64,000 bases of DNA from the NCBI GenBank assembly GCA_017305195.1, contig JAFKMU010000050.1, positions 1 through 64,000 on the forward strand, written 5' to 3'. Positions within the stretch are counted from its first letter, which is position 1. Every line of letters begins with the position of its first letter. The stretch is from Verrucomicrobiota bacterium (GTDB taxonomy: Bacteria > Verrucomicrobiota > Verrucomicrobiia > Chthoniobacterales > Terrimicrobiaceae). Under the pieces are notes generated by a model. The model was not told the DNA's origin and did not search any database. It worked only from the letters and a program-made list of their open reading frames with translations. Both the position numbers and the translations under genes were made by a program. Shown here piece by piece: positions 44,410 to 60,906 of the stretch.

Positions 44410-44431
44410 GGAGAGAAAAGTCCGCGGCACA
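44395..44431. terminator. Perfect 13-bp hairpin overlapping the FGE stop
   Basis: TGTGCCGCGGACT (44395-44407) and AGTCCGCGGCACA (44419-44431) are exactly complementary with an 11-base loop. The left arm contains the last codons of FGE, and the TAA stop begins at its end. It lies between two convergent genes and is probably a shared transcription terminator, though it lacks a long T-tract. Confidence 0.6.
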
Positions 44432-44451
44432 ACGATGCTACCCAATCCAGT

Positions 44452-45483: not shown

Positions 45484-45522
45484 GGTGTTATGAAGTGATG
45501 TGTTTTTTGGATGTGGTAATAC

Positions 45523-46968
45523 TTAGAAGGTCACGCCCAGCTGGAAACCCAGCACGGTGGCGTTGGCGATGTTGCCGGTGGCTCCGGGGCGGATGATGTA
45601 CTGGAGGTCGGGCTGCACATAGGCCCACTGGTTGACCTGGATGCGATAGGAGAACTCCAGCACGCCCTCGTAGCTCTGGATCGCGCGTCCGCGGCTCTCG
45701 TCGACGTCGGCTTTGACATCGCTGTAGTCGCCGTAGGCAAAGGCAATACCCAGCTGGTCGTTGTCCCGCGTCGGGATGAGGCCCTTGTAGGCGAGTCCCG
45801 TCTGGAAGTAGAAGGGCACGCTGGCCTGGAAGGCCGGAGCGACGTTGAACAAGCTGAAGAAGTACAGGCCCTGCTCGCTCAGCTTCGGCTTCTCCGCCTT
45901 GAAGTCCTTGCCATCGGCCACGCTCTTGCCATCCGACGGTCCCTTGCCCAGCACTGGTGCGGGAGCTTCAGGCGAAGGCTCGCGGAACAGCTGCTGGTCG
46001 ACCTGGAAGTACACCAGCGTGCGCTGGTCATATGGCGTGCCGCGGAACCCCGTATTCTCTACTCCCCAGTAGATGAAGCCCGCGGCGTACTTGCCCGGCA
46101 GCTTCGACGAGCCGATCTTCGGTGTGAATCCGGCCTCCGTCAGCCAGTACAGGCCGTTCAGCTCGGGATCGATCTGGTAACCGGCGAAGTTCAGGCCGTG
46201 GTTGCTCGTATTGGTCGCATTCGGGATCGCAAGGTAGAGACCCGACTGGGCGTAAAACCAATCCGCCGGGCTGATCTTGCCATAGCCGCCCCAGGCGCCA
46301 TAGCTGCCACCCCACGGGATGCCGTTTGCGCTGATGCCCTTGCCCGAGGTGTAGGTGTTGTTCAGGAAGAACTTGCTCAGCGGCTGGTTGATGAAGATAT
46401 CCGTCGGGTTCTGCCAGCCACCCGAGAGGGTGAGGAATTTCTTGATGCCGAAGAGCTCCGGCGTGGTGTAGGTCGCGTACGCATTCTGGAAACGCCAGAG
46501 ACGACCGCCCTGGAAGGTGCTCGGTGCGAAGTTGCCGCTCGCGCCGACCCATTTGTTCACGCCTGCGCCGCCGCGATACCGGATATCCGAGTACAGCGAG
46601 AGCCCTTCAAGCGCTTCCCATCCGGTCAGCTTGGCCACGTCGAGCGTACCCTTGAATTTCCACTCGTCATCGTAGCCGAAGCGCTGCTGCAGGCCGCCGT
46701 CGACGTTCCAGAGGAAGTTGGCCTTCCACTCGACCCCGAGCTTCAGTCCGTGCTCCTCGAGCGTGTCGCGCACGCCGAACCAGTTGCCCGTGGCGTATTT
46801 TCCGTTCCACCACTCGGCGAGCAGCGACTTGCTGTCGCTGAGAGATGCGTCACTGGTGGAAATGACGGATTTGTTTTCGATGGATTGCGCCAGGGTTTCA
46901 CCGGACGTGAGCCCCACCGCTGTGGTCGCGACCGCTATGGCCGCCGAGAGAGTTTGAATGCGTTTCAT
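45523..46968 (-). CDS. OprB-like outer-membrane porin
   Basis: A 481-residue protein with a signal peptide (cleaved near GETLAQS), the OprB-family start WWNGKYATGNWFGVRDTLEEHG, and a long beta-barrel alternation ending in an aromatic C-terminus (GVTF). OprB-type porins pass carbohydrates. Here it sits between a YezD-type gene and a sulfate-binding protein, so it may pass sulfate esters, sulfated sugars or sulfonates instead. That is inference from context. Confidence 0.85.
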   Translation of the reverse strand: MKRIQTLSAAIAVATTAVGLTSGETLAQSIENKSVISTSDASLSDSKSLLAEWWNGKYATGNWFGVRDTLEEHGLKLGVEWKANFLWNVDGGLQQRFGYDDEWKFKGTLDVAKLTGWEALEGLSLYSDIRYRGGAGVNKWVGASGNFAPSTFQGGRLWRFQNAYATYTTPELFGIKKFLTLSGGWQNPTDIFINQPLSKFFLNNTYTSGKGISANGIPWGGSYGAWGGYGKISPADWFYAQSGLYLAIPNATNTSNHGLNFAGYQIDPELNGLYWLTEAGFTPKIGSSKLPGKYAAGFIYWGVENTGFRGTPYDQRTLVYFQVDQQLFREPSPEAPAPVLGKGPSDGKSVADGKDFKAEKPKLSEQGLYFFSLFNVAPAFQASVPFYFQTGLAYKGLIPTRDNDQLGIAFAYGDYSDVKADVDESRGRAIQSYEGVLEFSYRIQVNQWAYVQPDLQYIIRPGATGNIANATVLGFQLGVTF

Positions 46969-47066
46969 TGTTTTTAGGCATTCCCGAACTCCAGCGGTCT
47001 GGTCGTTGGAAAAGAAGTGGTTCAGGCGGCCTCCAGAGAACTGGTCGGCAAAAGGGAATCGACTCG

Positions 47067-47246
47067 CTAGTCGATCAGGCGGGTCCGGCGCGTTTGCCGG
47101 ATTTCTGTGACACGGCGGTCGTGAACCACGATCTCGACGAACCCAAATTTGACCTCCCGCACCGCGGCGAGGATTTGTTTCTCGATTTCGCTCTGGGTCG
47201 ATTCCGTCGAGATATCCGGCTTTGATGTCGGGGTGGTCGCACTCAT
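47067..47246 (-). CDS. YezD-type (DUF2292) small protein
   Basis: A 59-residue gene. The ATG at 47246 is preceded by a strong ribosome-binding site (GGAAGGAG, 7 bases off). The translated core, ILAAVREVKFGFVEIVVHD followed by RRVTEI, matches the YezD family, short proteins often found beside sulfate or sulfonate uptake and cysteine genes. It lies 98 bases upstream of the porin and probably heads a yezD-porin-sbp operon. Its biochemical role is not established to my knowledge. Confidence 0.82.
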   Translation of the reverse strand: MSATTPTSKPDISTESTQSEIEKQILAAVREVKFGFVEIVVHDRRVTEIRQTRRTRLID

Positions 47247-47341
47247 CGGTGCTCCTTCCGTTTTGGGTGATGAAGAATGTTCAGCATGTCTGCCGTGTTG
47301 GTGGGGCGGATATAAACAGGATAATAACGACCAAACAAGTA

Positions 47342-47358
47342 GTTATTTGAAAAATAAC
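47342..47358. promoter_or_regulatory. Perfect 7-bp dyad upstream of the yezD gene
   Basis: GTTATTT (47342-47348) and AAATAAC (47352-47358) with loop GAA, in a notably AT-rich 140-base gap. A TTGTTT and TATATC pair lies closer to the yezD start and could be its promoter. The dyad may be an operator for a sulfur regulator or the terminator hairpin of the antiporter gene, which ends at 47391 on the same strand. Confidence 0.35.
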
Positions 47359-47390
47359 ACACCCGAGCTGAAATTTTAGCATCTTCGAAC

Positions 47391-49145
47391 CTACTTCGCC
47401 TCCTCGCCCTCGGCGAAGAACCCTTCGTTCATCTCGCCCCGCTCGGCGGCGAGGGCGGCCACCTGCTTGCGGATTTCCGGGAACCTCCGCAGGAACTGGC
47501 GGAAGTCGTTTTGGTTCAGGGTGACGAACTTGCTGTAATCCAGCGCGATCACATCGGCCGAGCGGGGCTTGCCGGAGAGCAGCGCCATCTCGCCGAAGTA
47601 ATCTCCCGCCGTGAGCGGAATCTTGCGATCCGCCACCCGCACCTCCACCTCGCCCGAGGAGATGAAGTACACATTGTCCGGCGCATCACCCGCGCGAATG
47701 ATGCGGTCGCCGGGCTGGGCGGTCCGGGTCTCAAAATGCAGCAGCAACACCTCGCGCTGTTCCGGCGTGAGATTGCTGAAAAGCGGGAACCGCTCGGCCA
47801 ACTCCTCCGGGGTGAAGGTCTTGTGCGCCGCGGCTTTCTCTGCTGCACGGAGACGCGCATCTTCCAACTCCTTCTCCAGAGCGTGGAAGCGCGTCTGGCG
47901 GCTGTCCTCAAAGCGGGCTTTCCGCCGGGGATCGGCCTTCACCCAATGGCAGGCGCGCTCCGTCACGGAAAACACCACGGGGTTCACCGTGATCGAGACC
48001 AGCGCCCCGGCCAGCACGAGATTCATGCCCTCCTGGGTGAAGATCCCATGCGAGATGCCCAGGGTGGCCAGGATGAAGGAAAACTCACCGATCTGTGCCA
48101 GCGACGCGGAGACCGTGAGCGCCGTGCTCAGCGGATACCCGAGCACCATCACGATGCCCAGCGCCGCGAGCGATTTGCCGACCAGGATCAGCGCCACCAC
48201 CGTCAATACCAGCAGCGGCTTTTGCCACAAGATCGCCGGGTCGAACATCATGCCGACCGACACGAAGAACAACACCGCAAAGGCATCCTGCAGCGGGAGG
48301 GAATTCGTCGCCGCCTTGTGGCTCAGGTCCGACTCATTCAGCACCATGCCCGCAAAAAACGCCCCCAGCGCATAGGACACGCCGAAAAGCGTGGCCGACC
48401 CGTAAGCCAGCCCGAGCGCGATGGCCAGCACCGCCAGGGTGAAAAGCTCCCGCGATCCCGTCCGCGCCACCTGCCGGAGCACCCAAGGCATCACCCGGGG
48501 CCCGATCAGCAGCGCGATCACGACGAACGCCGCCACCTTGGCCAGAGTGATTCCGAGCGTGACAAAGATATTCCCATCCGCCGCAGCCCCATGCCCTCCG
48601 CCATCGGAGACATGCCCGCCGAGCATGCCCGCACAAGCCGGCACCAGCACGAGGGCCAGCACCATGGCCAGATCCTCCACGATCAGCCAGCCCACCGCGA
48701 TGCGGCCATTGGGCGTCGCCACGCCATTGCGCTCCTCCAGCGCCTTGAGCAGCACCACCGTGCTCGCCACGGAAAGGCACAGGCCCATGATGATGCTCGG
48801 CCCCATCGCCCAGCCAAACAGATGAAACACCCCCGCCGTGACGGCGGTAGCCAATACGATCTGCCCGATCGCGCCGGGCAGCGCGATCCGCCGCACCGCC
48901 ATCAGGTCTCCCAGGGAAAAATGCAGCCCCACGCCAAACATCAGCAGCATCACCCCGATCTCCGCCAACTGGCTCGTCAGCGCCGGGTCCGCATCAAACC
49001 CCGGCGTATTCGGCCCCACCAGCACCCCCGCCACCAGATACCCCACCAGCGGCGGCAGATTCAGCCGGTTCGCCAGAAACCCCAGCACAAACGCCAGCGC
49101 GAACCCCACCGAAATGGTGGAAATCAGAGAAACATCGTGAGGCAT
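47391..49145 (-). CDS. CPA2-type cation/proton antiporter with cNMP-binding-like domain
   Basis: A 584-residue protein with about 12-13 membrane helices (1-385) of the KefB/YbaL class: LPPLVGYLVAGVLVGP, the FGVGLHFSLGDL segment and GLCLSVASTVVLLKAL. A charged linker (about 395-440) leads to a C-terminal cyclic-nucleotide-binding fold (LFSNLTPEQREVLLLHFE, GDYFGEMALLSGKPRSADV read at 440-560). Most KefB/YbaL proteins carry a TrkA-N domain instead. The phosphate-binding FGEMALL-x-KPRSA segment looks intact, so ligand gating is possible. Confidence 0.88.
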   Translation of the reverse strand: MPHDVSLISTISVGFALAFVLGFLANRLNLPPLVGYLVAGVLVGPNTPGFDADPALTSQLAEIGVMLLMFGVGLHFSLGDLMAVRRIALPGAIGQIVLATAVTAGVFHLFGWAMGPSIIMGLCLSVASTVVLLKALEERNGVATPNGRIAVGWLIVEDLAMVLALVLVPACAGMLGGHVSDGGGHGAAADGNIFVTLGITLAKVAAFVVIALLIGPRVMPWVLRQVARTGSRELFTLAVLAIALGLAYGSATLFGVSYALGAFFAGMVLNESDLSHKAATNSLPLQDAFAVLFFVSVGMMFDPAILWQKPLLVLTVVALILVGKSLAALGIVMVLGYPLSTALTVSASLAQIGEFSFILATLGISHGIFTQEGMNLVLAGALVSITVNPVVFSVTERACHWVKADPRRKARFEDSRQTRFHALEKELEDARLRAAEKAAAHKTFTPEELAERFPLFSNLTPEQREVLLLHFETRTAQPGDRIIRAGDAPDNVYFISSGEVEVRVADRKIPLTAGDYFGEMALLSGKPRSADVIALDYSKFVTLNQNDFRQFLRRFPEIRKQVAALAAERGEMNEGFFAEGEEAK

Positions 49146-49252
49146 GGCGCGTATTTAGCCTCCTCATCCTTCCCATGGCTAGAAATACCGCCTGCCCTTG
49201 GCCGGTCTAAAAGTCTCGAATTTGCCCGCGAAATTGAGAAGATTTCCGCCGA

Positions 49253-50512
49253 ATGGCAACGAACGCGCAAAACGCGGCTTCCCACGTCCACCGAATGACC
49301 TCGAACCTCCCCCCGGAGGAAGTCCTTGAGCGACTCCGCCCGGATCATGGGGCGCTTTCTCCGCGCGTCCCCGGAGCATCGCTGACCTCGGCCGAGGCCA
49401 TCCAGCGCCGCTGGGCGCTGCTTCACGGAGCGGAATCCGCCCGGGACTTGCTGTGGGACGGCGAAGACCTCGCGGCCTACGCGGGCAATATCGAGAACGC
49501 CATCGGCGAGATCCGCGTCCCGGTCGCCATCGCCGGACCTTTGCGGGTGAATGGAAGCTTTGCCCACGGAGACTATTACGTACCGCTTGCCACCACAGAG
49601 GCTGCGCTGGTTGCGTCCTACACACGTGGTTGCCAGTTGCTGAGCGAGGCGGGAGGGTGTTCGGCGCTGCTCCTCTCCGAGGGTGTCAGTCGGGCGCCCG
49701 GCTTTGTTTTCTCCGACCTGGTGGAGGTGGGGGCGTTTGTGAATTGGCTGCTCTCGCAAAAGGAATCATTCGCTCGCGTGGCGGAATCCACGACCAGCCA
49801 TGGCAAACTGCTCGATATGCGCCTGAACGTGGAGGGCAATCACGTCTACGCCATCTTTGAGTACTACACCGCCGATGCCGCCGGGCAAAATATGGTGACC
49901 ATCGCGACCCAGGCTGTCTGCGATTACATCGCGGAACATTCGCCGGTGCGCCCGCAGCATATCTTCGTCGAGGCCAATCTCTCGGGCGACAAAAAAGCCA
50001 GCGCCCAGTCGTTTCAGACTGTGCGCGGTCGCAAGGTGGCTGCCGAGTGTCTCATCCCCGCTGCCTCTTTGGAGAAGCGCCTGCATGCTCCCGCTGCGTC
50101 GCTGGAGGAATACTGGCGGATGTCTGCCCTCGGCGGCGTGCTGAGCGGAACCATCGGAGTGCAGGGTCACTTCGCCAATGGTCTTGCGGCTCTCTTCCTC
50201 GCCACCGGGCAGGATGTCGCCTGTGTCTCGGAGGCTGCGGTGGGGGTGACCCGATTCGAGGCACGCCCGGATGGCAGCCTTTACGCAACGGTCACATTGC
50301 CCAACGTCATCGTAGGCAGTGTCGGCGGCGGGACGAAACTTCCCACTCAGTCCGCCTGCCTCGATATTCTTGGCTTGAAAGGGGCGGGCCATGCGCGGGC
50401 TCTGGCCGAAGTCGCCGCCGCCCTGGCGCTGGCGGGTGAACTGTCCATCATCGGAGCGCTGGCCGCAGGGCATTTTACCCGGGCTCACCGCAAGCTGGCC
50501 CGTAACGATTGA
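49253..50512 (+). CDS. HMG-CoA reductase (class I-like)
   Basis: This enzyme reduces HMG-CoA to mevalonate with NADPH. The 419-residue protein keeps all catalytic residues: Glu in ENAIGEIRVPVAIAGPL (about 80), Lys in SGDKKAS (about 246), Asp in TGQDVACVSEA (about 320) and His in TRAHRK (about 412). VGSVGGGTKLPTQ is also typical. It heads a tightly spaced plus-strand operon; UbiA-like begins 4 bases past the stop. Starts at 49253 or 49295 are possible. No other mevalonate-pathway genes are in the window. Confidence 0.9.
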   Translation: MATNAQNAASHVHRMTSNLPPEEVLERLRPDHGALSPRVPGASLTSAEAIQRRWALLHGAESARDLLWDGEDLAAYAGNIENAIGEIRVPVAIAGPLRVNGSFAHGDYYVPLATTEAALVASYTRGCQLLSEAGGCSALLLSEGVSRAPGFVFSDLVEVGAFVNWLLSQKESFARVAESTTSHGKLLDMRLNVEGNHVYAIFEYYTADAAGQNMVTIATQAVCDYIAEHSPVRPQHIFVEANLSGDKKASAQSFQTVRGRKVAAECLIPAASLEKRLHAPAASLEEYWRMSALGGVLSGTIGVQGHFANGLAALFLATGQDVACVSEAAVGVTRFEARPDGSLYATVTLPNVIVGSVGGGTKLPTQSACLDILGLKGAGHARALAEVAAALALAGELSIIGALAAGHFTRAHRKLARND

Positions 50513-50516
50513 TCCG

Positions 50517-51440
50517 ATGAACGAGCAACCGGGAGGCGTTCGTCGGTGGTGGATTTATCAAAAGGAGCGGTTTCCTCTCTTCACCCACGGGCCGTTGATT
50601 CTCGCCTTCAGCCTTTGCGCATTGTGCTTCTCCTCGCTCCTTCGTGGAGCAGATCGCTTCCCCGCCATCCCGGCGATCCTGGTCGCATTCTTCTCCTCGC
50701 TCATCTCCTTTCTCCACCTGCGACTGGCTGATGAATTCAAGGACTATGAGGAAGATGCGCGGTATCGCCCTTACCGGGCAGTTCCGCGCGGACTGGTATC
50801 GCTCAAGGAACTGGGGGGGCTCTGGGCGTTGACCGGCCTGGTCCAGGTCGCGCTGGCTGCCGCGCTCAATATCCGTCTCATCCCCTTGCTGCTCATCACC
50901 TGGCTCTATCTCGGCCTGATGAGCCGGGAGTTCTTTTGCAAGGCCTGGCTGAAAGCTCATCCCTTTACCTACATGTGGACGCACATGTTCATCATGCCGC
51001 TGATCGATTTCTATGCCACGGCATGTGACTGGCTGATGGTTTCCGATCGTCCGCCGCAGGGGCTGATGTGGTTTGTCGTGGTGAGCTTCCTCAATGGATT
51101 CATCATCGAAATCGGTCGCAAGATTCGCGCCCCGCACGATGAGGAGCATGGGGTGGAAACCTACTCGTTTCTCTGGGGCCGGGCCGGGGCGGTGGGTGCG
51201 TGGCTGCTGGCCATGGCCCTCACGTTTTCCTTTGCCGTCGTGGCCGCTCTTCGCATTCATTTCCTGCCGCCGGTGGCTGTCGTCCTCGGTCTCGTGCTGG
51301 CTGTCGCCATTTTCAGGGGCCTCCGCTTCCTTAGCCAACCGCAGAGCGGCAAGGCGTTCGAAGCACTGTCCGGGCTATGGACGCTCTGCTTGTATCTGAT
51401 GCTCGGCGTCGTCCCCCTCCTATGGAAACTCCTAGCCTGA
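50517..51440 (+). CDS. UbiA-family prenyltransferase
   Basis: A 307-residue membrane protein with about nine helices and the two Asp-rich motifs of UbiA transferases: ADEFKDYEEDARYRPYR (about 70-85) and APHDEEHGVETYSFLWG (about 205-220). The family moves an isoprenyl chain from a diphosphate onto an acceptor. The first motif reads DExxDxxxD rather than the usual NDxxDxxxD. The acceptor is unknown. The stop overlaps the next ATG (TGATG) for coupled translation. Confidence 0.85.
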   Translation: MNEQPGGVRRWWIYQKERFPLFTHGPLILAFSLCALCFSSLLRGADRFPAIPAILVAFFSSLISFLHLRLADEFKDYEEDARYRPYRAVPRGLVSLKELGGLWALTGLVQVALAAALNIRLIPLLLITWLYLGLMSREFFCKAWLKAHPFTYMWTHMFIMPLIDFYATACDWLMVSDRPPQGLMWFVVVSFLNGFIIEIGRKIRAPHDEEHGVETYSFLWGRAGAVGAWLLAMALTFSFAVVAALRIHFLPPVAVVLGLVLAVAIFRGLRFLSQPQSGKAFEALSGLWTLCLYLMLGVVPLLWKLLA

Positions 51441-53926
51441 TGTTGATTTCCTCCTGGCGCGATACGGACTTTTCTCATCACCCGGTGGGCGGCAAGGCGC
51501 GCGCCCTTGGCGCTCTGAGCCAGACGGGCTTCCCGGTACCGGAGTGGATCGTGGTGCTTCCCTCTGCCTGTGAGGTCGCTGACGATGAGCTCCGCCGCGA
51601 ACTGGCCGCCTTTCTTTCCTCAACGCCTGGCCCCTGGGCCGTGCGATCCTCCGCCGTCGATGAGGATGGACAGGTGCATTCCTTTGCGGGCCAGTTGGAA
51701 AGTTTCCTCAATGTCGCGAGGGAGGATGTTCTCGAAAAAATCCGGGCGGTGTGGAAGTCCGGCTTCAGCGAGCGCATCATCGCTTATCGCAGTCAGGCGG
51801 GACTCAGCCTTCCACCGCCGGTGCCTGCGGTGATCGTGCAGCAGATGGTCGCCGCCGAGGCTGCGGGAGTTGCCTTTAGCGCGGATCCCGTCTCGGCACG
51901 CCGGGGGATCGCGGTAGTGGCCGCCGTGCGTGGGTTGGGGGAGGCGCTCGTTTCCGGGGAGGCCACGGGTGACAGCTTTCACGTGGATCGCTCCCGGCGG
52001 ATCGTGCATCGCGCAATAGTCAATGCATCTCAGCCCATCATTCCGGATACTTGCGTCGTGGCAGTCGCCGATCTCGCCCGGCGCGCCGAGCGATACTTCG
52101 GCCTTCCCCAGGACATCGAGTGGGCTGTCGCGGACTCGCGTCTATACCTGCTTCAATCTCGCCCGATCACCTCACTGACCGGAAAGGTTGATCCTGATGG
52201 GCTGTGGCAGCTCTGGGACAATAGCAATATCGCCGAGAGCTACAGCGGCGTGACCACTCCGCTCACCTTCAGCTTCGCCCGGCACGTTTACGAGGAGGTC
52301 TATCGGCAGTTCGTCAAAATCCTCCGCGTTCCGCTTTGGCGCATCGAGGCCAATCGCGATGTCTTTGGCCGCATGCTGGGCCTCGTCCGGGGTCGCGTAT
52401 TTTATAATCTCCTGAGCTGGTATCGCGTTCTCGCCATGCTGCCCGGCTTTGCCGTGAATCGTCGTTTCATGGAGCAGATGATGGGGGTGAAGGAACCTCT
52501 GCCCGAGGATGCCATCGCAGGAATCATCGGAAAGACTCAACAGACGCAATTCTCCGACTACGCGGAAATCGCGGGAACGATCCTCGGTCTCCTCGGCAAT
52601 CATCTGCTGCTTCCTGGCAAGATCAGGCGATTTTATCAGCGCCTCGACGAGGCTTTGGCTCTCGGCGATATCACGCTGGAGGAAATGCGCCCGGATGAAC
52701 TGGCCGCCGCTTATCGCCGGTTGCAGAACCAGCTCCTGACCCGGTGGGATGCGCCATTGATCAACGACTTCTTCGCGATGATTTACTTCGGCGTCTCACG
52801 CAAGCTGGTGGACAAATGGTGTGGCGATCCCGATGGAACGCTGCAAAATGATCTCATCGCCTGCCAGGGCGGCATCATCAGCGCGGAACCCGCCCATCGC
52901 ATGATGCGTCTCGCCGAAATGGCCCGCTCGGATGCGACCCTTCGCGCTGTGCTGGCCTCTGGTTCGCTGGCTGAGATCGAGCAAGTCATGCCCGCTGCGT
53001 TCCGCTCGGAATATCACGCCTATCTGGAGAAATTCGGCGACCGCTGCCTGGAGGAGCTCAAGCTTGAGAGCGCCACGCTCCACGACGACCCCTTGCTCCT
53101 GCTGCGCTCGGTCGCGCGACTGGCGGAACGCGACGCCTTGCCCGCCTCGCGCTCGGCTGATCTTTCCGCCTCTGCGGCCCAGCGCGTGGATGTCGCCTTG
53201 AAAGGACACCGGCTGCGACGATGGCTTTTCGATTTCGTCATCGGCCAGACTCGTGACCGGGTGCGTGATCGGGAGAATCTTCGCTTTGAGCGGACCCGTG
53301 TTTTTGGCCGCGTGCGGCGCATCTTTGTGGAACTCGGCAAACGCCTGCACTGCCTCGGCATCCTCGACGAACCTCGCGACATTTTCTTTCTCGAGGCCGA
53401 GGAGGCGATGGGCTTCGTCGAGGGAACTGCCGTCACGACCAACCTCCGGGCGCTCGCCCGGCTCCGTAAGGAGGAGTTTGCGGATTTTCCTGCCGAACCG
53501 CCTTCGGACCGCTTCGAGACGCTCGGCGTGGTCTATGTCGGCAATACGTTCCAGGCCGCGAGGGCTTCCGCCTTGGCCTCCGGCGACGAACGCAAGGGCA
53601 TCGGCTGCTGCCCCGGCTTGGTGCGTGGCCGCGTGCGGGTGATTCTCGATCCGCGAAACGCGGTGATTCATCCCGGCGAGATTCTCGTCGCTCCGCGTAC
53701 CGATCCTGGTTGGATCATGCTCTTCCCTGCCGCCGCAGGGCTGCTCGTCGAGCATGGCAGCCTCCTCTCGCACTCTGCCATCGTGGCCCGGGAAATGGGA
53801 ATACCCGCTGTCGCCTCGATCCCGGGTCTTACCGCCTGGCTCAAGACCGGCGACGAGGTGGAACTGGACGGCAGTACGGGACGAATCATCCGCGTGGCGG
53901 TCCCGGAGGTGTCTCATGCCGAGTGA
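51440..53926 (+). CDS. PEP-synthase/rifampin-phosphotransferase-like dikinase
   Basis: An 828-residue, three-part protein: an ATP-grasp half (1-260; GGKARALGALSQ, VRSSAVDEDG, QQMVAAEAAGVAFSADPVS, IEWAVADSRLYLLQSRP), a long helical middle (about 270-690), and a swivelling His domain (LVEHGSLLSHSAIVAREMGIPAV, His about 776). This order is that of rifampin phosphotransferase rather than true PEP synthase, which has the PEP site at the C-terminus. It may phosphorylate a small molecule or lipid. The ATG at 51422 is an alternative start. Confidence 0.8.
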   Translation: MLISSWRDTDFSHHPVGGKARALGALSQTGFPVPEWIVVLPSACEVADDELRRELAAFLSSTPGPWAVRSSAVDEDGQVHSFAGQLESFLNVAREDVLEKIRAVWKSGFSERIIAYRSQAGLSLPPPVPAVIVQQMVAAEAAGVAFSADPVSARRGIAVVAAVRGLGEALVSGEATGDSFHVDRSRRIVHRAIVNASQPIIPDTCVVAVADLARRAERYFGLPQDIEWAVADSRLYLLQSRPITSLTGKVDPDGLWQLWDNSNIAESYSGVTTPLTFSFARHVYEEVYRQFVKILRVPLWRIEANRDVFGRMLGLVRGRVFYNLLSWYRVLAMLPGFAVNRRFMEQMMGVKEPLPEDAIAGIIGKTQQTQFSDYAEIAGTILGLLGNHLLLPGKIRRFYQRLDEALALGDITLEEMRPDELAAAYRRLQNQLLTRWDAPLINDFFAMIYFGVSRKLVDKWCGDPDGTLQNDLIACQGGIISAEPAHRMMRLAEMARSDATLRAVLASGSLAEIEQVMPAAFRSEYHAYLEKFGDRCLEELKLESATLHDDPLLLLRSVARLAERDALPASRSADLSASAAQRVDVALKGHRLRRWLFDFVIGQTRDRVRDRENLRFERTRVFGRVRRIFVELGKRLHCLGILDEPRDIFFLEAEEAMGFVEGTAVTTNLRALARLRKEEFADFPAEPPSDRFETLGVVYVGNTFQAARASALASGDERKGIGCCPGLVRGRVRVILDPRNAVIHPGEILVAPRTDPGWIMLFPAAAGLLVEHGSLLSHSAIVAREMGIPAVASIPGLTAWLKTGDEVELDGSTGRIIRVAVPEVSHAE

Positions 53927-55019
53927 AGCCGCGGCTCATGCCGATTTTGCGACGATCCTTCGTTACGCCCAGGTCTGGGAGGATGCCGACATCCTGATCG
54001 AGGGCCTGGACATCCAGCCGGATGACATCTGCCTTTCCATTGCCTCCGCCGGGGACAATGCCCTGGCCATGCTGGCAAAAGGTCCGCGCAAGGTCGTGGC
54101 CATCGACCTGAATCCCTCCCAGCTCGCCTGTCTGGATCTCCGCGTCGCAGCCTTTCGCCATCTGGAGCATCGCGATGTCCTCACCCTCATCGGTTCGGTT
54201 CCAGATGGAGCACGAGCGCCGCGACTCTACTCCACGCTCCGCGAGTCCCTTTCACCAACAACGCGCGCTTTCTGGGATGCCCGTCCCGAGTGGATCGATC
54301 GCGGCATCGGCCATGCCGGAAAGTTCGAGAATTACTTTCGCCTCTTTCGTGAGCGGATCATGCCCCTCGTGCACTCGCGGAAAACCGTTGCCGAGTTGCT
54401 GCTGTCCCGCGACATCGAGGCTCGCCGCGTATTTTACTCGCAGCGATGGGACACCTGGCGGTGGCGCGTGCTTTTCCATGTCTTTTTTTCCCGAGCCATG
54501 ATGGGTGCACTGGGGCGCGACCCCAGCTTCTTCCGCTATGTGGAGGGAAGCGTGGCGGAGAAGATTCTCACCCGCACCCGGCACGCCCTTACAGAGCTCG
54601 CTCCAGCCGAGAATCCCTATCTGCAATGGATTCTCACCGGTCGCCATGGCTCCGCCCTGCCGTATTACCTGCGAGAGGAAAATTTCGAATCCATTCGGCG
54701 AAATCTTGACCGCCTCGAGTGGCACTGCGGCCCTCTGGAGGATTTCCTCGGGGGCCATCCGCCCGGCACATTCAGCAAGTTCAACCTCAGCGACATCTTT
54801 GAGTATCTGTCGGAGGAAACCAGCGACAGCGTCTTCCGGCTCATCGCGGACTCTGCGCGCCCCGGCGGCCGCCTCGCGTATTGGAACATGCTCGCTCCCC
54901 GGCAGGCTCCCGCCGCCCTGTCAGGTCGCGTCACGTCCTTGCACGACCTGGCCTCCCGGCTGCATGCCCGGGACAAGGCCTTTTTCTACAGCGCCTTTCA
55001 CGTGGAGGAGTTCCGATGA
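53916..55019 (+). CDS. BtaA-like (DUF3419) SAM-dependent aminocarboxypropyl transferase
   Basis: A 367-residue protein with the SAM site CLSIASAGDNALAMLA and VVAIDLNPSQLACLDLR (about 35-70) and the C-terminal FNLSDIFEYLSEE and ARPGGRLAYWNML blocks of DUF3419/BtaA. BtaA moves a 3-amino-3-carboxypropyl group from SAM to diacylglycerol in betaine-lipid synthesis. The methylating partner BtaB is not found here, so the product may carry an unmethylated homoserine-like head group. The start overlaps the dikinase gene by 11 bases and its end overlaps the next by 4. Confidence 0.82.
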   Translation: MPSEAAAHADFATILRYAQVWEDADILIEGLDIQPDDICLSIASAGDNALAMLAKGPRKVVAIDLNPSQLACLDLRVAAFRHLEHRDVLTLIGSVPDGARAPRLYSTLRESLSPTTRAFWDARPEWIDRGIGHAGKFENYFRLFRERIMPLVHSRKTVAELLLSRDIEARRVFYSQRWDTWRWRVLFHVFFSRAMMGALGRDPSFFRYVEGSVAEKILTRTRHALTELAPAENPYLQWILTGRHGSALPYYLREENFESIRRNLDRLEWHCGPLEDFLGGHPPGTFSKFNLSDIFEYLSEETSDSVFRLIADSARPGGRLAYWNMLAPRQAPAALSGRVTSLHDLASRLHARDKAFFYSAFHVEEFR

Positions 55020-56320
55020 ACTCCTGGTTCGGCATCCTCGCTGTCCTCGCCACGCTGGGACTGCTCATGGGCGTGATCCGGTGCGCTCAGTCCTGCCTCA
55101 GTGCGGAGCTGTCGCGCAAGGCGGTCCATATCGGGATGGGGTTTGTCTGTTTGTCCTTCCCGTGGCTTTTTCAGGAGAGGTGGCCGGTTGTGCTGCTGGC
55201 CGTGCTCGCTGTGGTGGGCCTCGGCGCGGTGAGGCTCCTTCCGTTTCTCCGCCGAAAGGTGGGAGGCGTGCTTGGCGGGGTGGAGCGTCACTCGCTGGGA
55301 GAGATCTACTTCCCGGTGGCCGTGGCCACGGTCTTCCTCCTCGCTGATGGAAAAACTCTTCTTTACGTCATTCCGGTATTGACTCTTACTCTGGCCGATT
55401 CTGTCGGCGCGCTGATCGGCATTCGCTATGGTCATGCCCGCTATCGTACGGACGAGGGTTTCAAAAGCGCCGAGGGTTCGGTGGCCTTTTTCACCGCCGC
55501 CTTCCTGAGCTGCCACATCCCGCTCCTGCTTTTTAGCGACACGGGACGGGCGGAGACGCTGCTCATCAGCCTGACTGCCGGGTTTGTCGTCATGCTCCTT
55601 GAGGCCATCTCCTGGCGGGGACAGGATAATCTCATCATCCCGATCGGGATGTATTTCCTGCTCAGCTTCTACCTCCCGCTGAACGAATGGCAGCTCTTGG
55701 GGCGCTTTCTCCTCATCCTCGCGCTGGTGGTGCTCGTCATGCTGGTGAGAAATCGCACTACGCTCAGCGACAGCGCCGTCCTGGCCGGAGCCTTGTCGGG
55801 ATATGCCGTGTGGGCTTTCGGTGGGCGCTTCTGGATTTTTCCCCCGCTCCTCCTCTTTGTCATCTACGTCTGGCTGCCATCGTTCCCGAAGTCCGCCCGT
55901 CCGGTGCAGAATCTTCACGCGGTCACCCGGGTCATGGCCGGCGGCCTTCTCTGGGTGGGCCTTTCACATGTCTATGAGCGCGATTTTCTCCTGCCTTATC
56001 TGCTCTGCATGGCCGCGCATACCGGCAACATTATCACCGCCCGGCTGCGAATCGTTCGCGCCCAACTGCCCATGGGAAAGATCGCCGTCATCGCTTTCCT
56101 GATCGCCTCGGCGGCGTTTCTCCTCCTTGGCTCCGGCGGCGTGGCCTTGGGTGTTCTTTCGTTTCGGAGCCTGTTCTGGCTTCCGGTGGCAGTTGCCGTC
56201 TCGATTGCGCTCTTTATCCCATTCTGGCCACCCGAGCATCGTGATGACCAGCGATGGCAGATCTGGCTTTCCGAGACCGGCATTGCCATCCTTGTCTCCT
56301 GCCTCGGCCTCCTTCCTTGA
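55016..56320 (+). CDS. Dolichol/phytol-kinase-like (CTP-dependent) membrane protein
   Basis: A 434-residue protein with about 12 helices. The first half has SRKAVHIGMGFVCLSF (about 31) and LTLADSVGALIGIRYG (about 125), the signatures of phytol and dolichol kinases and related CDP-transfer enzymes. The second half (after about 250) is another helical bundle of the DUF92-like kind (DSAVLAGALSGYAVWAFGG), so the gene may be a natural fusion. It overlaps the BtaA-like gene by 4 bases. It may phosphorylate a prenol or diglyceride-type alcohol. Confidence 0.75.
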   Translation: MNSWFGILAVLATLGLLMGVIRCAQSCLSAELSRKAVHIGMGFVCLSFPWLFQERWPVVLLAVLAVVGLGAVRLLPFLRRKVGGVLGGVERHSLGEIYFPVAVATVFLLADGKTLLYVIPVLTLTLADSVGALIGIRYGHARYRTDEGFKSAEGSVAFFTAAFLSCHIPLLLFSDTGRAETLLISLTAGFVVMLLEAISWRGQDNLIIPIGMYFLLSFYLPLNEWQLLGRFLLILALVVLVMLVRNRTTLSDSAVLAGALSGYAVWAFGGRFWIFPPLLLFVIYVWLPSFPKSARPVQNLHAVTRVMAGGLLWVGLSHVYERDFLLPYLLCMAAHTGNIITARLRIVRAQLPMGKIAVIAFLIASAAFLLLGSGGVALGVLSFRSLFWLPVAVAVSIALFIPFWPPEHRDDQRWQIWLSETGIAILVSCLGLLP

Positions 56321-56326
56321 CTCCGC

Positions 56327-57280
56327 ATGAACTTCCTCTCCTTCTCCCCGAATCAGGAACCGCCGGGTTTCGATCCCCGGCTTCTGGTGTCCCATCAGGT
56401 CGACGAACATCTCTCCGATGAGAGCGGAAAAAATCACTGCTCGCTCTGGTGGTCGGTCGTTCCCGGCATCCCCGGCGAACGACCCGGCGTGATCGGCCAC
56501 TTTGCCGCGACCAGTCTGGAGGAGGCCCTACCTCTCCTCGCCTTCGCCCTCGCTCGTCTGCGCGCCACCGGATGCACCATCGCTCTCGGGCCGATGGATG
56601 GAAATACATGGCGCCGCTACCGTGTGCTCACGGAACGCGGGGAGGAGCCGCCCTTCTTCATGGAGCCGGATAATCCCGACTGGTGGAGCGATGCGTTTCT
56701 CCTTTCCGGTTTTTCCTCCCTCGCTACCTACACATCCTCGCTAGTGGACGACCTTTCGCGGCGCGATCCCCGGGTGGAGCGCGCCCGCATTCGGCTGGAG
56801 GGTGAGGGAATTCAAATCAGGAATCTCGATCCCGACCGTTTTGAGGACGATCTGCGGCGCATCTATGCGGTGTCCGTCATCAGCTTTACGGGGAATTTTC
56901 TCTACACCCCGGTTCCGGAATCCGCCTTCATCGCGCAGTATCTCCCGTACCGGGACAAGATCCGGCCCGAGTTCGTTTACCTGGCTGAGGATCGCGGTGA
57001 GCCCGTCGGTTATCTCTTCGCCATTCCCGACTATGCCGAGGCGCAGCGTGGACTCCCGATGCGTACGCTTATCGGCAAAACTCTGGCCAGCGTCCCGGGG
57101 CGGCGCTATGGGGGGCTGGGCGTTGTCCTCACCGACCTGCTGCATCAACGTGCGCAAAGCATGGGATTTAGCCGCGTCATCCATGCGTTGCAATATGAGG
57201 GCAACAGCGTGCGCAATATGAGTGAGTTTTTCGGTCGCGTCATGCGTCGCTACACCCTTTTTTCACGCCGTCTGACATGA
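56327..57280 (+). CDS. GNAT-like acyltransferase, unknown substrate
   Basis: A 317-residue protein. The front contains GPMDGNTWRRYRVL, a motif of some GNAT-fold proteins. The second half has a beta strand and helix layout with EFVYLAEDRGEPVGYLFAIPD and RYGGLGVVLTDLLHQRA, which look like the acetyl-CoA-binding region, though the canonical Q/RxxGxG/A is loose (RRYGGLG). The gene follows the kinase-like gene by 6 bases and overlaps the ligase by 4. An acyl-transfer role fits, but is unproven. Confidence 0.65.
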   Translation: MNFLSFSPNQEPPGFDPRLLVSHQVDEHLSDESGKNHCSLWWSVVPGIPGERPGVIGHFAATSLEEALPLLAFALARLRATGCTIALGPMDGNTWRRYRVLTERGEEPPFFMEPDNPDWWSDAFLLSGFSSLATYTSSLVDDLSRRDPRVERARIRLEGEGIQIRNLDPDRFEDDLRRIYAVSVISFTGNFLYTPVPESAFIAQYLPYRDKIRPEFVYLAEDRGEPVGYLFAIPDYAEAQRGLPMRTLIGKTLASVPGRRYGGLGVVLTDLLHQRAQSMGFSRVIHALQYEGNSVRNMSEFFGRVMRRYTLFSRRLT

Positions 57281-58794
57281 GCACGATCCCAGAGATCCTG
57301 CGCAGCAATGCCGCCAGCTGGCCACGGCGCGACGCTCTCGTTGCCACACGGCTGGGTCAGGACATCGCGGTCACCTTTTCCCAGCTCGAAAATCAGGCGA
57401 ATCTCTTCGCCGACATGCTTTATTCACGCGGGATTCAGCCCGGCGATCCCGTGCTGGTTTTTGTCCCGATGTCGATCGAGCTTTACGTCGCCCTTCTCGG
57501 CATTTTCCGGCTGGGAGCGGGCGCTGTCTTTCTCGATCCCTCCGCCGGTCTCGGGCATATCGACGCTTGCTGCTCGCGCCTGCCGCCCCGCGCCCTTGTC
57601 AGCGTGCGGCCATTGCGGCTTCTGCGCCCGTTTGTCACTGGTCTCCGGAAGATTCCGCATGTGTTCGCTCCTCCCCGCGATCTCCATGGATCGCTGGGAA
57701 ATCTGCCTCCTCCGCCGGGTCCCGACGATGCGGCGCTCATTACTTTTACCAGTGGCAGCACAGGTCAGCCCAAGGCCGCCGCGCGCACGCATCGCTTCCT
57801 GATCGCTCAGCACGCCGCTTTGCGCGGCTCGATTAAACTCGAGGAGGGCGAGCGAGATCTCACGACGCTGCCGGTTTTTGTCCTCGCCAACCTCGCCTCC
57901 GGGATCACCAGCATCCTCCCGGATGCCAGGATCAGCCGCCCGGGATCAGTCAACGCCCGGCGCATCGCCCGTCAGGTGGCGCGCCTGCGCCCGGCACGCA
58001 CGGGCGGCTCGCCCGCATTTTATCAACGTCTGCTTTCCGAGCCGGCATGCCTCGCTGGATTTCGCAAGATTTACACAGGAGGTGCTCCGGTTTTTCCCGC
58101 GTTCCTTAAGGAGCTTCAGTCCGCGACTCCTTCGGCGGATGTTGTCGCCGTCTATGGGTCGACCGAGGCGGAGCCGATCTGTCATGTGTCCTGCCGGGAT
58201 ATCTCAGCGGAGGACTGGGAGGCCATGCGCTCGGGGCGGGGCTTGCTTGCGGGCTTGCCAATTCCGGAGATTCGCCTCCGCATTATCCCGGACCAGTGGG
58301 GGAATCCTGCGATTGATTTTGCGCCGCAGCCTTCCGGCTGTATTGGAGAGATTATCGTGGCTGGCGACCATGTCCTGAAAGGATATCTCCACGGCAGAGG
58401 CGACGCTGAAACCAAGGTGCGGCTGGACGGTGAGATCTGGCACCGTACGGGTGACGCCGGATATCTGGACGGAAATGGACGTCTGTGGCTGATGGGGCGA
58501 TGTTCCGCCCGGATCAGTGATGCCCTCGGCACGCTTTATCCCTTCGCTGTCGAATGTCTTGCGATGACCTTCCCCGGCATCCGGCGGGCTGCATTTATCC
58601 AGCTGGGCGGGGAACGGACTCTTGTGATCGAGACGCGCCCGGGTTTTCGGCAGTTCGGAGATATCGAGGCCGCCTGCGCTCAATTCCGCATTTCCCGCGT
58701 CTGCAAGGTTTCAATGATACCCGTCGATGCCCGCCATAATGCAAAGATCGACTACCCGGGGCTGGAGCGCCTCGTAAGGAAAATGGGCGGGTAG
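57277..58794 (+). CDS. AMP-forming acyl-CoA synthetase-like ligase
   Basis: A 505-residue ANL-superfamily enzyme. The phosphate loop is ITFTSGSTGQPKAA (about 157), followed by YGSTEAEP (about 293), the hinge region HRTGDAGYL (about 390), and a C-terminal NAKIDYPGL with the adenylation Lys (about 490). It would activate a carboxylic acid as an adenylate, then pass it to CoA or a carrier. It closes the seven-gene operon; its 4-base overlap with the GNAT-like gene suggests the two act in sequence. Confidence 0.85.
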   Translation: MSTIPEILRSNAASWPRRDALVATRLGQDIAVTFSQLENQANLFADMLYSRGIQPGDPVLVFVPMSIELYVALLGIFRLGAGAVFLDPSAGLGHIDACCSRLPPRALVSVRPLRLLRPFVTGLRKIPHVFAPPRDLHGSLGNLPPPPGPDDAALITFTSGSTGQPKAAARTHRFLIAQHAALRGSIKLEEGERDLTTLPVFVLANLASGITSILPDARISRPGSVNARRIARQVARLRPARTGGSPAFYQRLLSEPACLAGFRKIYTGGAPVFPAFLKELQSATPSADVVAVYGSTEAEPICHVSCRDISAEDWEAMRSGRGLLAGLPIPEIRLRIIPDQWGNPAIDFAPQPSGCIGEIIVAGDHVLKGYLHGRGDAETKVRLDGEIWHRTGDAGYLDGNGRLWLMGRCSARISDALGTLYPFAVECLAMTFPGIRRAAFIQLGGERTLVIETRPGFRQFGDIEAACAQFRISRVCKVSMIPVDARHNAKIDYPGLERLVRKMGG

Positions 58795-58835
58795 GGGGCT
58801 AGCGAAGTCCGGAATTAACTGGAAGCGATCGGGAT

Positions 58836-60182
58836 TCAAACCCTCTCCAGCGTGCTGGTCTCGCCGTCGTAGAGCGCGTATTCCGCGGAGCTGGTTCCGT
58901 GGTTAAGGCTGGTTCCTGCGATACCTTTTACCTCGCAGAGGTTCTCCCGGTTTTCCCTTCCTCCGAAAATGGCGATCCGGATTCTTTCGGAATGGGGCAG
59001 GATCGCGGCTGCCATCCGCGAGTTTCCCGCGAAGGCGCGGAAGAACGCATCGATGGCATTTCTGCCCTTCCGGTCGAGCCAGCTTTCGAATGGCACGGTT
59101 CCCGTCACCAGCAGAATGCCGCGGTCGGGTGGAACTTCCGCCAGTCGCCGGGAAAGTCCCTCCGACTGGCGCTGCGCCTCCTCCTCCAGGGTCTCCGCCG
59201 CGAAGGGGATCTGCCGGATGTCATTGGCCTCCAGGCCGCCCGCGGTTCCCGCCAGATAGGCTTCGAGGCTTACCTCCTCGCCGTCGATGGACAGGCCTTC
59301 GTCCCGGAATCCGAGGTCGAAGTGCCCGTAGGCTCCCACGATCGCGAGGTCTCCCAGCGGGAGGTTCTGAAAATCCAGCCCCACGACCCCGGTCTTTTCC
59401 AAAGCGGGCTGCCAGAAGTGCTTTCTCACTGCCTCGGGGGAGGGAAACTGCTCCCACCGGTCGCGCGGCAGCCAATGATCGCGCGGACCGAGGCAAATCG
59501 CCACGGGTACTCCCCCGCTGGCGGTCTTCAGCGCCTGCAGGCACTCCAGGGCCTGCTCCGGCCGCCCGATATTGCCTGCCACCACTACTGCCTGTGGCTG
59601 TGTTTTCAGCACCACTCCCCGGAGCTTCGCCAGCACGGCTTCGCGCCTCTCTGTCTCATGGAGCAAGAGGTTTGCGGTCAGCAGGATGCGTGATCTTCGC
59701 CGGGCTTTCTTGGCTGCACTCGCGGTTTTCGTGATCTCGATCGCCAGCGCGATCAGGATGCCCGCCAGGGCTCCTGAGAGGTTGATGAAGACATCGGTCA
59801 CGTTCGCCGTCCGGCTCCGGAAAAACGACTGGACGTACTCGCTCCCCGCCGCCAGAGCGAATGAGATCAGGAACACGAACCCCGCAAACCGGAGATCCGC
59901 CTTGGGAGAGACGAACTTCCACGATCCCCGCGTTCTCCAGATCAGCAGCGCGAGAATGAGGAACTGCGAGAAATGGCAGGCTTTCCGAAAGATCAGGTTG
60001 GCCTCGTACACCTGGGCTATCGGCATATCGGGACGGAACCAGCGCAGGATGGGCTGGATGATCTTGAACGTCGTGCCCCCCGAGGCCCAGTCCAGCGAGG
60101 CAAAGAGGATGAGGACCATCCAGAGTACGGCTGGCCACCAGCGCTCGACAGTCGGAGAAAAGGCTTTTAAGGCTTTGGCCAT
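58836..60182 (-). CDS. VanZ-like membrane domain fused to degenerate metallophosphoesterase-like domain
   Basis: A 448-residue protein. Residues 1-150 have four helices of the VanZ/teicoplanin-resistance type (LILFASLDWAS, KACHFSQFLILALLIW, LAAGSEYVQSFFRSRTANVTDVFINLSGALAG). Residues 165-448 look like a calcineurin-type fold, but the motifs are eroded: ILLTANLLLHE, VAGNIGRPE, LGPRDHWLP and LVTGTVPFES take the places of DxH, GDxx, GNHD and GHxH. Catalysis is doubtful. It is divergent from the Wza-like gene, so a role in polysaccharide export or cell-envelope sensing is possible. Confidence 0.75.
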   Translation of the reverse strand: MAKALKAFSPTVERWWPAVLWMVLILFASLDWASGGTTFKIIQPILRWFRPDMPIAQVYEANLIFRKACHFSQFLILALLIWRTRGSWKFVSPKADLRFAGFVFLISFALAAGSEYVQSFFRSRTANVTDVFINLSGALAGILIALAIEITKTASAAKKARRRSRILLTANLLLHETERREAVLAKLRGVVLKTQPQAVVVAGNIGRPEQALECLQALKTASGGVPVAICLGPRDHWLPRDRWEQFPSPEAVRKHFWQPALEKTGVVGLDFQNLPLGDLAIVGAYGHFDLGFRDEGLSIDGEEVSLEAYLAGTAGGLEANDIRQIPFAAETLEEEAQRQSEGLSRRLAEVPPDRGILLVTGTVPFESWLDRKGRNAIDAFFRAFAGNSRMAAAILPHSERIRIAIFGGRENRENLCEVKGIAGTSLNHGTSSAEYALYDGETSTLERV

Positions 60183-60258
60183 GAGGCTATTTACCTTTGC
60201 TGGAAGAGAGTTCGGCTTCGCAGGTAGGACGCAGGCGCATGTGGCTCTTCATTTCCTA

Positions 60259-60906
60259 ATGAAATCCCTCTCCATCTGCCAATGGTTTCCTCGCATCGGT
60301 CTCCGGACCGTGTTTTTTCTGGCCCTGACGTGCCTCACCCTGCTCTCGGGCTGTGGCGGTCCCATGTCCTCTGGCACGACCGAGGCTCCGGCGGGCTATA
60401 CGCCGCATAAAAAAGAGGAGGTCTACCGCATTCGCATCGGCGATGTTGTCCAGGTGGATATCTTTCAGGAGTCGGCCATGACCACCCGCCAGCGCGTGCA
60501 GGGGGATGGCACCGTCGCCGTCGCGCTCCTGGGCCGCGTGGACGTGCAGGGCCTGACCACAGCGCAGGCCTCGGAGAAAATTGCCGCCCTCCTCGACGCC
60601 AAACAAATCGTCAAGCCGCAGGTCAATGTCACCGTCCTCGCCTACGCTCCTCAGCGATTCACTGTCATGGGCCAGATCAAGACCGCCGGTATGTATGTCA
60701 TCCCGCCGGAGGAAAATATCTCCCTCCCGGAGGCGATCGCCATGGCGGGCGGCCCCACCATCATCGGCAACCTGAAAAAGGTCTTCATCAGCCGCAAGCA
60801 GGGCAACGAGGTCTCTCGCATCCGGCTGAACGCCCTCGCTCCCAGCTCCCAGTTTTTCCTCATCAAGGAAGGCGACGTGATTTTTATCAGCGAGACGGTT
60901 TTCTAG
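60259..60906 (+). CDS. Wza-type polysaccharide export lipoprotein
   Basis: A 215-residue outer-membrane lipoprotein (lipobox LLSGC, Cys32). The Poly_export domain starts YRIRIGDVVQVDIFQES, followed by an SLBB-type repeat (RFTVMGQIKTAGMYVIP) and KEGDVIFISETVF at the C-terminus. It is shorter than Escherichia coli Wza, having one SLBB unit. Wza proteins form the outer-membrane exit pore for capsule or exopolysaccharide. The stop is immediately followed by the Wzc-like ATG. Confidence 0.9.
   Translation: MKSLSICQWFPRIGLRTVFFLALTCLTLLSGCGGPMSSGTTEAPAGYTPHKKEEVYRIRIGDVVQVDIFQESAMTTRQRVQGDGTVAVALLGRVDVQGLTTAQASEKIAALLDAKQIVKPQVNVTVLAYAPQRFTVMGQIKTAGMYVIPPEENISLPEAIAMAGGPTIIGNLKKVFISRKQGNEVSRIRLNALAPSSQFFLIKEGDVIFISETVF

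Follow-up and report, generated by a model that had tools for sequence, protein, structure and literature searches.

What might a bacterium build with a 3-hydroxy-3-methylglutaryl-CoA (HMG-CoA) reductase-like protein encoded in one operon with a UbiA-type transferase, a dikinase-like protein, a BtaA-family protein, a kinase-like membrane protein, an acyltransferase and an acyl ligase? The question is raised by the first 64,000 nucleotides of contig JAFKMU010000050.1 (assembly GCA_017305195.1), from a Verrucomicrobiota bacterium of the Terrimicrobiaceae; this whole stretch is called the window below. An earlier note, made from the sequence alone, had singled out seven genes at 49253–58794 as a possible polar-lipid pathway. 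We refer to them, in the window order, as HMGR-UBIA-PPS-BTA-KIN-GNAT-LIG. We find that the seven genes form a conserved set, that certain gene pairs within it stay adjacent as modules, that the whole block is present or absent within the genus, and that HMGR has exchanged two residues that contact HMG in the human enzyme. As to function, we put at about even the chances that these genes make up an exchangeable operon of four modules, devoted to the synthesis of a polar lipid not yet described.

Conservation and exchange of the operon

All seven genes lie on one strand, and the spacings previously given for them (+4, -1, -11, -4, +6 and -4) match the open reading frame (ORF) coordinates exactly if 51440 is taken as the start of PPS, for which an in-frame ATG at 51422 would be an alternative. 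A promoter and terminator scan returned a single promoter-like site, on the minus strand, and 19 terminator-like sites versus 9.5 (standard deviation 3.0) in shuffled sequences. Almost all of the latter lie within genes, and they were not used as evidence.

To describe conservation, we pooled 43 loci: six close-relative loci, 16 regions found with KIN as bait, 20 regions found with BTA as bait, and locus L141. Larger regions were fetched for part of the KIN and BTA matches (16 and 20), and the phyla of relatives are named after record titles. The close-relative loci come from a pattern-based scan of one genome per species for 84,980 species, and all six contain seven genes. KIN matches 23 of 387 genomes of the home phylum (own genome counted), two of them weakly. 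BTA matches 24 of 200 genomes in the phylum of Gemmatimonadota genome G390 and 40 of 199 in the phylum of Planctomycetota genome G388, many of these matches being distant DUF3419 proteins. Across the 43 loci, all seven genes are present in 17, six in 6, and fewer in 20; the loci L033, L034, L039, L040, L043, L110 and L124 are truncated where a contig or the region ends. Chance grouping can be excluded, because six or seven genes stand together in 23 of the 43 loci. Scattering in relatives, named earlier as a refuting outcome, is not what these 23 loci show; in the proposed check, the set is conserved within Verrucomicrobiota and beyond, and its order varies blockwise. The cluster spans Verrucomicrobiota, Planctomycetota and Gemmatimonadota. 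An apparent reach into Gammaproteobacteria (L024, VXNP01000123.1) was dropped: genome G389 falls within the phylum of G390, and the label of L024 is probably wrong. Among the smaller loci, L112, L114–L118, L121 and L128 have a DUF3419 protein by itself in other surroundings, and L041 holds KIN alone. L141, from a genome of the same order (G816), carries a UBIA-PPS-BTA trio, with KIN, GNAT, LIG and HMGR unmatched within 19 kb.

The rearrangements are informative about which genes belong together. GNAT-LIG is placed first in L024–L027 and L123; L035 and L037 have the order HMGR-BTA-KIN-GNAT-LIG-UBIA-PPS; and in L124–L126 the cluster is split into two divergent halves. Counting as neighbors those genes that are adjacent among the seven, on the same strand and separated by a gap of less than 600 bases, three pairs are adjacent in every locus holding both members: GNAT-LIG (23/23), UBIA-PPS (25/25) and BTA-KIN (28/28). 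Looser are PPS-BTA (22/27), HMGR-UBIA (17/20) and KIN-GNAT (15/24), and loosest are LIG-HMGR (6/18) and HMGR-BTA (5/23). For each of the 21 possible pairings of the seven proteins, distances between loci are correlated (r = 0.77–0.97, without an unlinked control gene), which would fit their co-inheritance. Apart from antisense shadows of the seven genes, no other family recurs in at least 3 of 22 loci, in a survey where long antisense ORFs disturbed ORF picking and some of the seven genes were missed.

Within the genus, the operon behaves as a unit. Among 39 relatives (own genome counted), DUF3419 matches were found in 5, weak in 2. One of the two other genomes of the genus has such a match; its antiporter coordinates are identical to those of strain LR76, which has the operon, and it is probably the same assembly. 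In the third genome of the genus, G788, BTA, the one gene of the seven searched for genome-wide, is unmatched. Both flanks of the operon are kept there (locus L139; 89% and 79% identity by blastn with window positions 44000–62000), and about 0.2 kb lies between them versus about 9.8 kb in the window. The breakpoints equate window 49160 with L139 6185 and window 58963 with L139 6390, such that a block at 49161–58962, containing the operon, is missing at the equivalent place in G788. The operon is exchangeable, a block that genomes of one genus either carry or lack, through gain or loss. Next to the operon, on the minus strand, an ORF at 58836–60182 encodes a VanZ-like domain (residues 18–147) fused to a C-terminal half that appears phosphoesterase-like by eye and has no Pfam match.

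The HMG-CoA reductase-like protein

HMG-CoA reductase is the enzyme of the cholesterol pathway that statins inhibit. Few enzymes have been studied more closely, and where it occurs the mevalonate pathway is usually assumed. The earlier note counted HMGR (49253–50512, plus strand; HMG-CoA_red, PF00368, 5e-110, 368 bits) toward the isoprenoid part of the product. The fold and catalytic residues of the protein would suit a role in isoprenoid supply, in which it raises isopentenyl diphosphate flux for UBIA. Genome content argues against it. We considered 27 KIN-bearing genomes, namely the KIN-bait matches minus the weakest two (G046 and G320), plus the six close-relative genomes. Seven of them have HMG-CoA synthase and the remaining 20 have DXR, with zero overlap. 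Because these 20 genomes have DXR and no HMG-CoA synthase, most KIN-bearing genomes use the methylerythritol phosphate pathway. An HMGR occurs in 21 of the 27, and 14 of these 21 have DXR without HMG-CoA synthase. Six of the seven synthase genomes carry a second, ordinary HMGR; in G350, which has the synthase and is 89% complete, the one HMGR is of the operon type. G189 has HMGR and KIN on separate contigs, without the rest of the cluster.

The operon-type protein also forms a sequence group of its own. An HMGR is present in 72 of the 387 genomes of the phylum, and the best scores fall into two ranges: 335–383 bits in 15 genomes, which is the operon type, and 306 bits or below in the others; 63 survey genomes have the non-operon type. 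In a tree built with 22 HMGRs of the operon type and 15 others, the two groups lie on opposite sides of a 100/100 branch, with a program warning that L129 is a long branch and may be misplaced. Against TIGR00533, the window HMGR scores 314 bits and does not reach the cut-off of 442.

Human residue numbers are used below, and their mapping onto the HMGR motifs is in part our assumption. The aligned operon-type rows number 26, comprising the window protein and those of 25 loci, L070 (HMGR alone) and L129 (a variant) included, and the duplicate L058 and a contig-end fragment in L110 left out. The 21 other HMGRs comprise the 15 best-scoring loci from non-KIN genomes and all six second copies. The catalytic residues Glu559, Lys691, Asp767 and His866 (E81, K247, D321 and H412 in the window protein) are kept in 26/26 operon-type HMGRs, as are the equivalents of Arg590, Asp690 and Lys692. 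The position of Ser684 is Glu in 26/26 (E240 in the window), and Lys735 is lost in 26/26, with Met in 10 (M290 in the window), Val in 12, Ile in 3 and Glu in 1. Both Ser684 and Lys735 are kept in all 21 of the other HMGRs, and Ser-Gly-Asn and Lys are present in the alignment for the solved enzymes 6hr7 and 8ecg. The Glu559 column is unaligned in the other HMGRs, and we make no claim on that residue there. Ordinary HMGRs L071, L077, L143, L145 and L147 start past the ENxIG segment that carries Glu559 in other class I enzymes, and the open frames of ordinary Verrucomicrobiota HMGRs are mostly about 350–400 amino acids long. In human HMGR, Ser684 and Lys735 contact the HMG part, and Lys735 forms a salt bridge with the HMG carboxylate (PMC9500038; for the contacts, also PMC3875450).

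This pattern reads as chemistry retained and acyl pocket changed. Judged from the sequences, the operon HMGR has with high probability been neofunctionalized, and it very likely reduces a molecule other than HMG-CoA. Isoprenoid supply by this protein is rejected by the distribution of DXR and HMG-CoA synthase, including the separate ordinary HMGR in six of seven synthase genomes, and by a separate tree group in which two HMG-contact residues are lost. We regard that role as largely refuted and leave it next to no probability. A second alternative is that HMGR still makes mevalonate, as a building block that LIG activates and GNAT transfers, much as (anhydro)mevalonyl groups are activated and transferred in fungal siderophore pathways. 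The retained catalytic residues, Arg590, Asp690 and Lys692 would be in keeping with this, and OleC-like ligases, as we understand them, act on beta-hydroxy acids. However, the lysine that binds the HMG carboxylate is gone and Ser684 is Glu in every operon-type row, 20 of the 27 genomes lack HMG-CoA synthase (leucine breakdown may be another source of HMG-CoA), and LIG and GNAT persist without HMGR in L036, L038 and L042. We consider mevalonate as the product of the operon HMGR improbable.

The remaining proteins and two variant loci

The family assignments made from sequence hold for HMGR, UbiA, the dikinase domains, DUF3419 and AMP-binding, which Pfam confirms for five window proteins; the window KIN and GNAT proteins have no Pfam match at E 0.1. 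UBIA (50517–51440, plus strand) is a UbiA-superfamily membrane transferase (PF01040, 1.9e-12, 47 bits). Its first Asp motif, D72-D76-D80, is invariant in 17/17 aligned sequences. The region of the second Asp motif shows the pattern E..RK.R.P.DE, with R201 and K202 invariant across the 17 sequences in our inferred alignment. The nearest solved relatives, digeranylgeranylglyceryl phosphate (DGGGP) synthase and chlorophyll synthase, have weak scores.

PPS (51440–53926, plus strand; PPDK_N 165 bits, PEP-utilizers 83 bits) has the domain order ATP-grasp, acceptor domain and C-terminal phosphohistidine domain, the last at residues 744–814 of 828, and the swivel His is kept in 19/19 rows. Its best NCBIfam model is named phosphoenolpyruvate (PEP) synthase (757 bits, cut-off 883), and its best solved relatives, 5fbs and 5hv1, are deposited as PEP synthase; we take these two to be structures of rifampin phosphotransferase (RPH). 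In a Pfam search of the window protein, PF02896 is unmatched. According to PMC4844700, the His domain of RPH is C-terminal, and RPH homologues are frequently misannotated as PEP synthase. A PEP synthase role for PPS is rejected, since the His domain is C-terminal instead of central and no C-terminal pyruvate-binding barrel is matched. The term dikinase thus stands for the PPDK_N and PEP-utilizers domains, in a protein that is RPH-like and without the domain order of PEP synthase. PPS also scores below the RPH cut-offs (256 of 999 bits for NF041857; 178 of 1700 bits for NF000283).

PPS bears on another explanation, in which the operon serves to make a small natural product for secretion, prenylated and N-acylated, with PPS acting like the condensing ligases PigC and RedH. 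PPS does score with both, though far under the cut-offs (278/1300 and 290/1350 bits), and the distribution of the operon is patchy and island-like. On the other hand, no polyketide synthase, nonribosomal peptide synthetase or tailoring gene was seen shared in the 22 loci, a survey of limited sensitivity in which ORF picking missed some true genes, and both DUF3419 and the membrane-bound kinase-like protein suggest that the substrates are lipids. We think a natural product of this kind rather unlikely.

BTA (53916–55019, plus strand) matches PF11899 over residues 8–364 of 367 (2.3e-77, 261 bits), and a 16-sequence alignment was made. The predicted activity, presumably that of the family, is SAM (S-adenosylmethionine)-dependent transfer of a 3-amino-3-carboxypropyl group. 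DUF3419 membership would also be expected of a variant betaine-lipid pathway, of the diacylglyceryltrimethylhomoserine (DGTS) type, with BTA acting on diacylglycerol. Nevertheless, a BtaB N-methyltransferase is not apparent next to the clusters: in the 22 loci surveyed, with imperfect ORF picking, no extra family is seen to recur there. Moreover, from what is known of the families, such a pathway has no need for UBIA, PPS, KIN, GNAT, LIG or HMGR. Betaine-lipid synthesis is accordingly a very improbable function for the operon.

KIN (55016–56320, plus strand) appears to be an integral-membrane protein resembling CTP-dependent lipid-alcohol kinases. Invariant in 22/22 rows are E31, R34, K35 and H38; D128; E153, G154 and S155; and E196, G202, D204, N205 and P209. 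We take these motifs to be of the VTE5/SEC59/DGK1 type. The model of KIN is almost all-helical, with a predicted local distance difference test score (pLDDT) of 88. The kinase-like call has its support from the invariant motifs, with little from Pfam and none from the PDB, as discussed below. GNAT (56327–57280, plus strand) was recognized correctly: Acetyltransf_1 (PF00583) is found in 18/19 members at E 0.1, the window protein excepted, and a confident model (pLDDT 88; predicted TM-score, pTM, 0.85) has as its best PDB match in Foldseek the tandem GNAT 7q3a (E 7.6e-12). We classify it as a tandem-type GNAT N-acyltransferase. LIG (57277–58794, plus strand; PF00501, 6e-53, AMP-binding 180 bits) is an AMP-forming acyl ligase of the PRK09274/OleC-like branch. 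It scores 336 bits against NF006754 (cut-off 478) and 209 bits against the OleC beta-lactone synthetase model NF045786 (cut-off 900), and by our reading of the alignment its C-terminal lid is present. Near the cluster in genome G159, a further LIG-like match lies at L035:1414-2205; at 26% it is more distant.

Two loci present BTA in a different company. In L129 (8888-15141), BTA is accompanied by an operon-type HMGR, an ornithine/diaminopimelate-decarboxylase-like protein and a CDP-alcohol phosphotransferase (26 bits against a cut-off of 22). L127 (8093-13600) combines BTA with a diacylglycerol kinase (DAGK)-like kinase and a GNAT-like ORF (24% identity, 4e-18). Both tie BTA to phospholipid chemistry. 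A similar decarboxylase-like ORF is visible in L127 in raw translation only, and, in our reading of the translations, ABC-transporter-like ORFs lie near the L129 and L127 clusters. That LIG supplies the thioester which HMGR reduces is made less likely by the separate occurrence of the two: HMGR is found with BTA and without LIG in L129, and LIG is found without HMGR in L036, L038 and L042, and also in L122 (search of the locus only).

A possible pathway and its relation to known systems

Each substrate, the step order and the product are what we infer, and the lipid character is suggested by DUF3419 together with two membrane enzymes. The HMGR-like enzyme would use NAD(P)H to reduce an acyl thioester, different from HMG-CoA, to the alcohol in a four-electron reaction. 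UBIA and the RPH-like PPS would be responsible for attaching a prenyl or lipid chain and for phosphorylating a hydroxyl, with AMP formed. BTA would transfer the 3-amino-3-carboxypropyl group from SAM to a hydroxyl, yielding a homoserine-ether head group, and KIN would phosphorylate a lipid hydroxyl with CTP. LIG would activate an acyl group for transfer by GNAT to the head-group amine. We assign LIG-GNAT to acylation, UBIA-PPS to transfer and phosphorylation, and BTA-KIN to the head group because these pairs are always adjacent; HMGR would be an optional, alcohol-making reductase. These steps would lead to a homoserine-ether prenyl lipid that is N-acylated and phosphorylated or, in broader terms, to a prenyl or ether lipid with an amino-acid head and the same two modifications. 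The polar-lipid idea of the earlier note thus survives as one conserved pathway, probably for a lipid, and not in its use of HMGR as isoprenoid source. Nor did we find a description of the gene set in open-licence PMC full texts (subscription papers and preprints were outside the scope), as had been supposed; the HMGR/GHMP-kinase neighborhood in the lipocone paper (PMC12419801) differs from this operon.

Several observations weigh against the lipid pathway. Many DUF3419 proteins sit outside the cluster, and the function of BTA is predicted from family membership. For KIN there is little Pfam support (CTP_transf_1, PF01148, in 3/22 members at E 0.1), and a fold search against the PDB gave no significant match. 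The GNAT-like ORF of L127 has no Pfam match. HMGR is lacking in 6 of the 27 KIN-bearing genomes: G004, G006, G117 and G230, where the other six genes are together, and G084 and G275, which were seen in short loci only. No replacement reductase was recognized in the ORF lists of the HMGR-less clusters L036, L038, L042 and L043. Finally, an RPH-like dikinase and an OleC-like ligase may fit a small diffusible metabolite as well.

More tentatively, we suggest that the product represents a new bacterial lipid class, with a SAM-derived homoserine-ether head, N-acylation and an isoprenoid chain, made with an HMGR clade that has moved off HMG-CoA; Glu240 may replace part of the carboxylate clamp and bind a cationic or neutral group. 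We hold this full proposal to be possible rather than probable. If true, this would be a four-electron thioester reductase of new specificity and, to our knowledge, the first clade of the HMGR superfamily to have left HMG-CoA for another acyl thioester. A clade with kept chemistry and no HMG clamp would mislead where the mevalonate pathway is deduced from the presence of HMGR. The operon would point to an uncharted membrane lipid common to some Verrucomicrobiota, Planctomycetota and Gemmatimonadota, for which the same-genus genome without the block is a natural control.

How does the operon compare with known systems? Like class I HMG-CoA reductases (6hr7, human 1dq8), the operon HMGR has the fold, the catalytic Glu/Lys/Asp/His and Arg590, Asp690 and Lys692; unlike them, it has Glu at Ser684 and no Lys735, forms a separate group, and occurs mostly in genomes without HMG-CoA synthase. 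BTA is a full-length PF11899 match, like BtaA (DUF3419) of betaine lipid synthesis, yet no methyltransferase partner was seen recurring in the cluster, and BTA is embedded in a seven-gene set. KIN, a membrane protein, shares with the CTP kinases VTE5, SEC59 and DGK1 motifs that we name, by assumption, E..RK..H, D-x3-A-x2-G and EGS...DN; it differs in an additional, poorly conserved C-terminal membrane half, largely missing in L042, and in that only 3/22 members match PF01148. The OleC-type/PRK09274 acyl-AMP ligases are the closest NCBIfam relatives of LIG, yet LIG falls under their curated cut-offs. UBIA resembles the UbiA prenyltransferases DGGGP synthase (6m31) and chlorophyll synthase (9sas) in fold family and first Asp-rich motif, whereas in our alignment basic residues replace the first Asp of the second motif. 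PPS, lastly, has the order ATP-grasp, acceptor and C-terminal phosphohistidine domain in common with rifampin phosphotransferase (5fbs/5hv1), but scores far below the models of that enzyme and sits in a biosynthetic operon.

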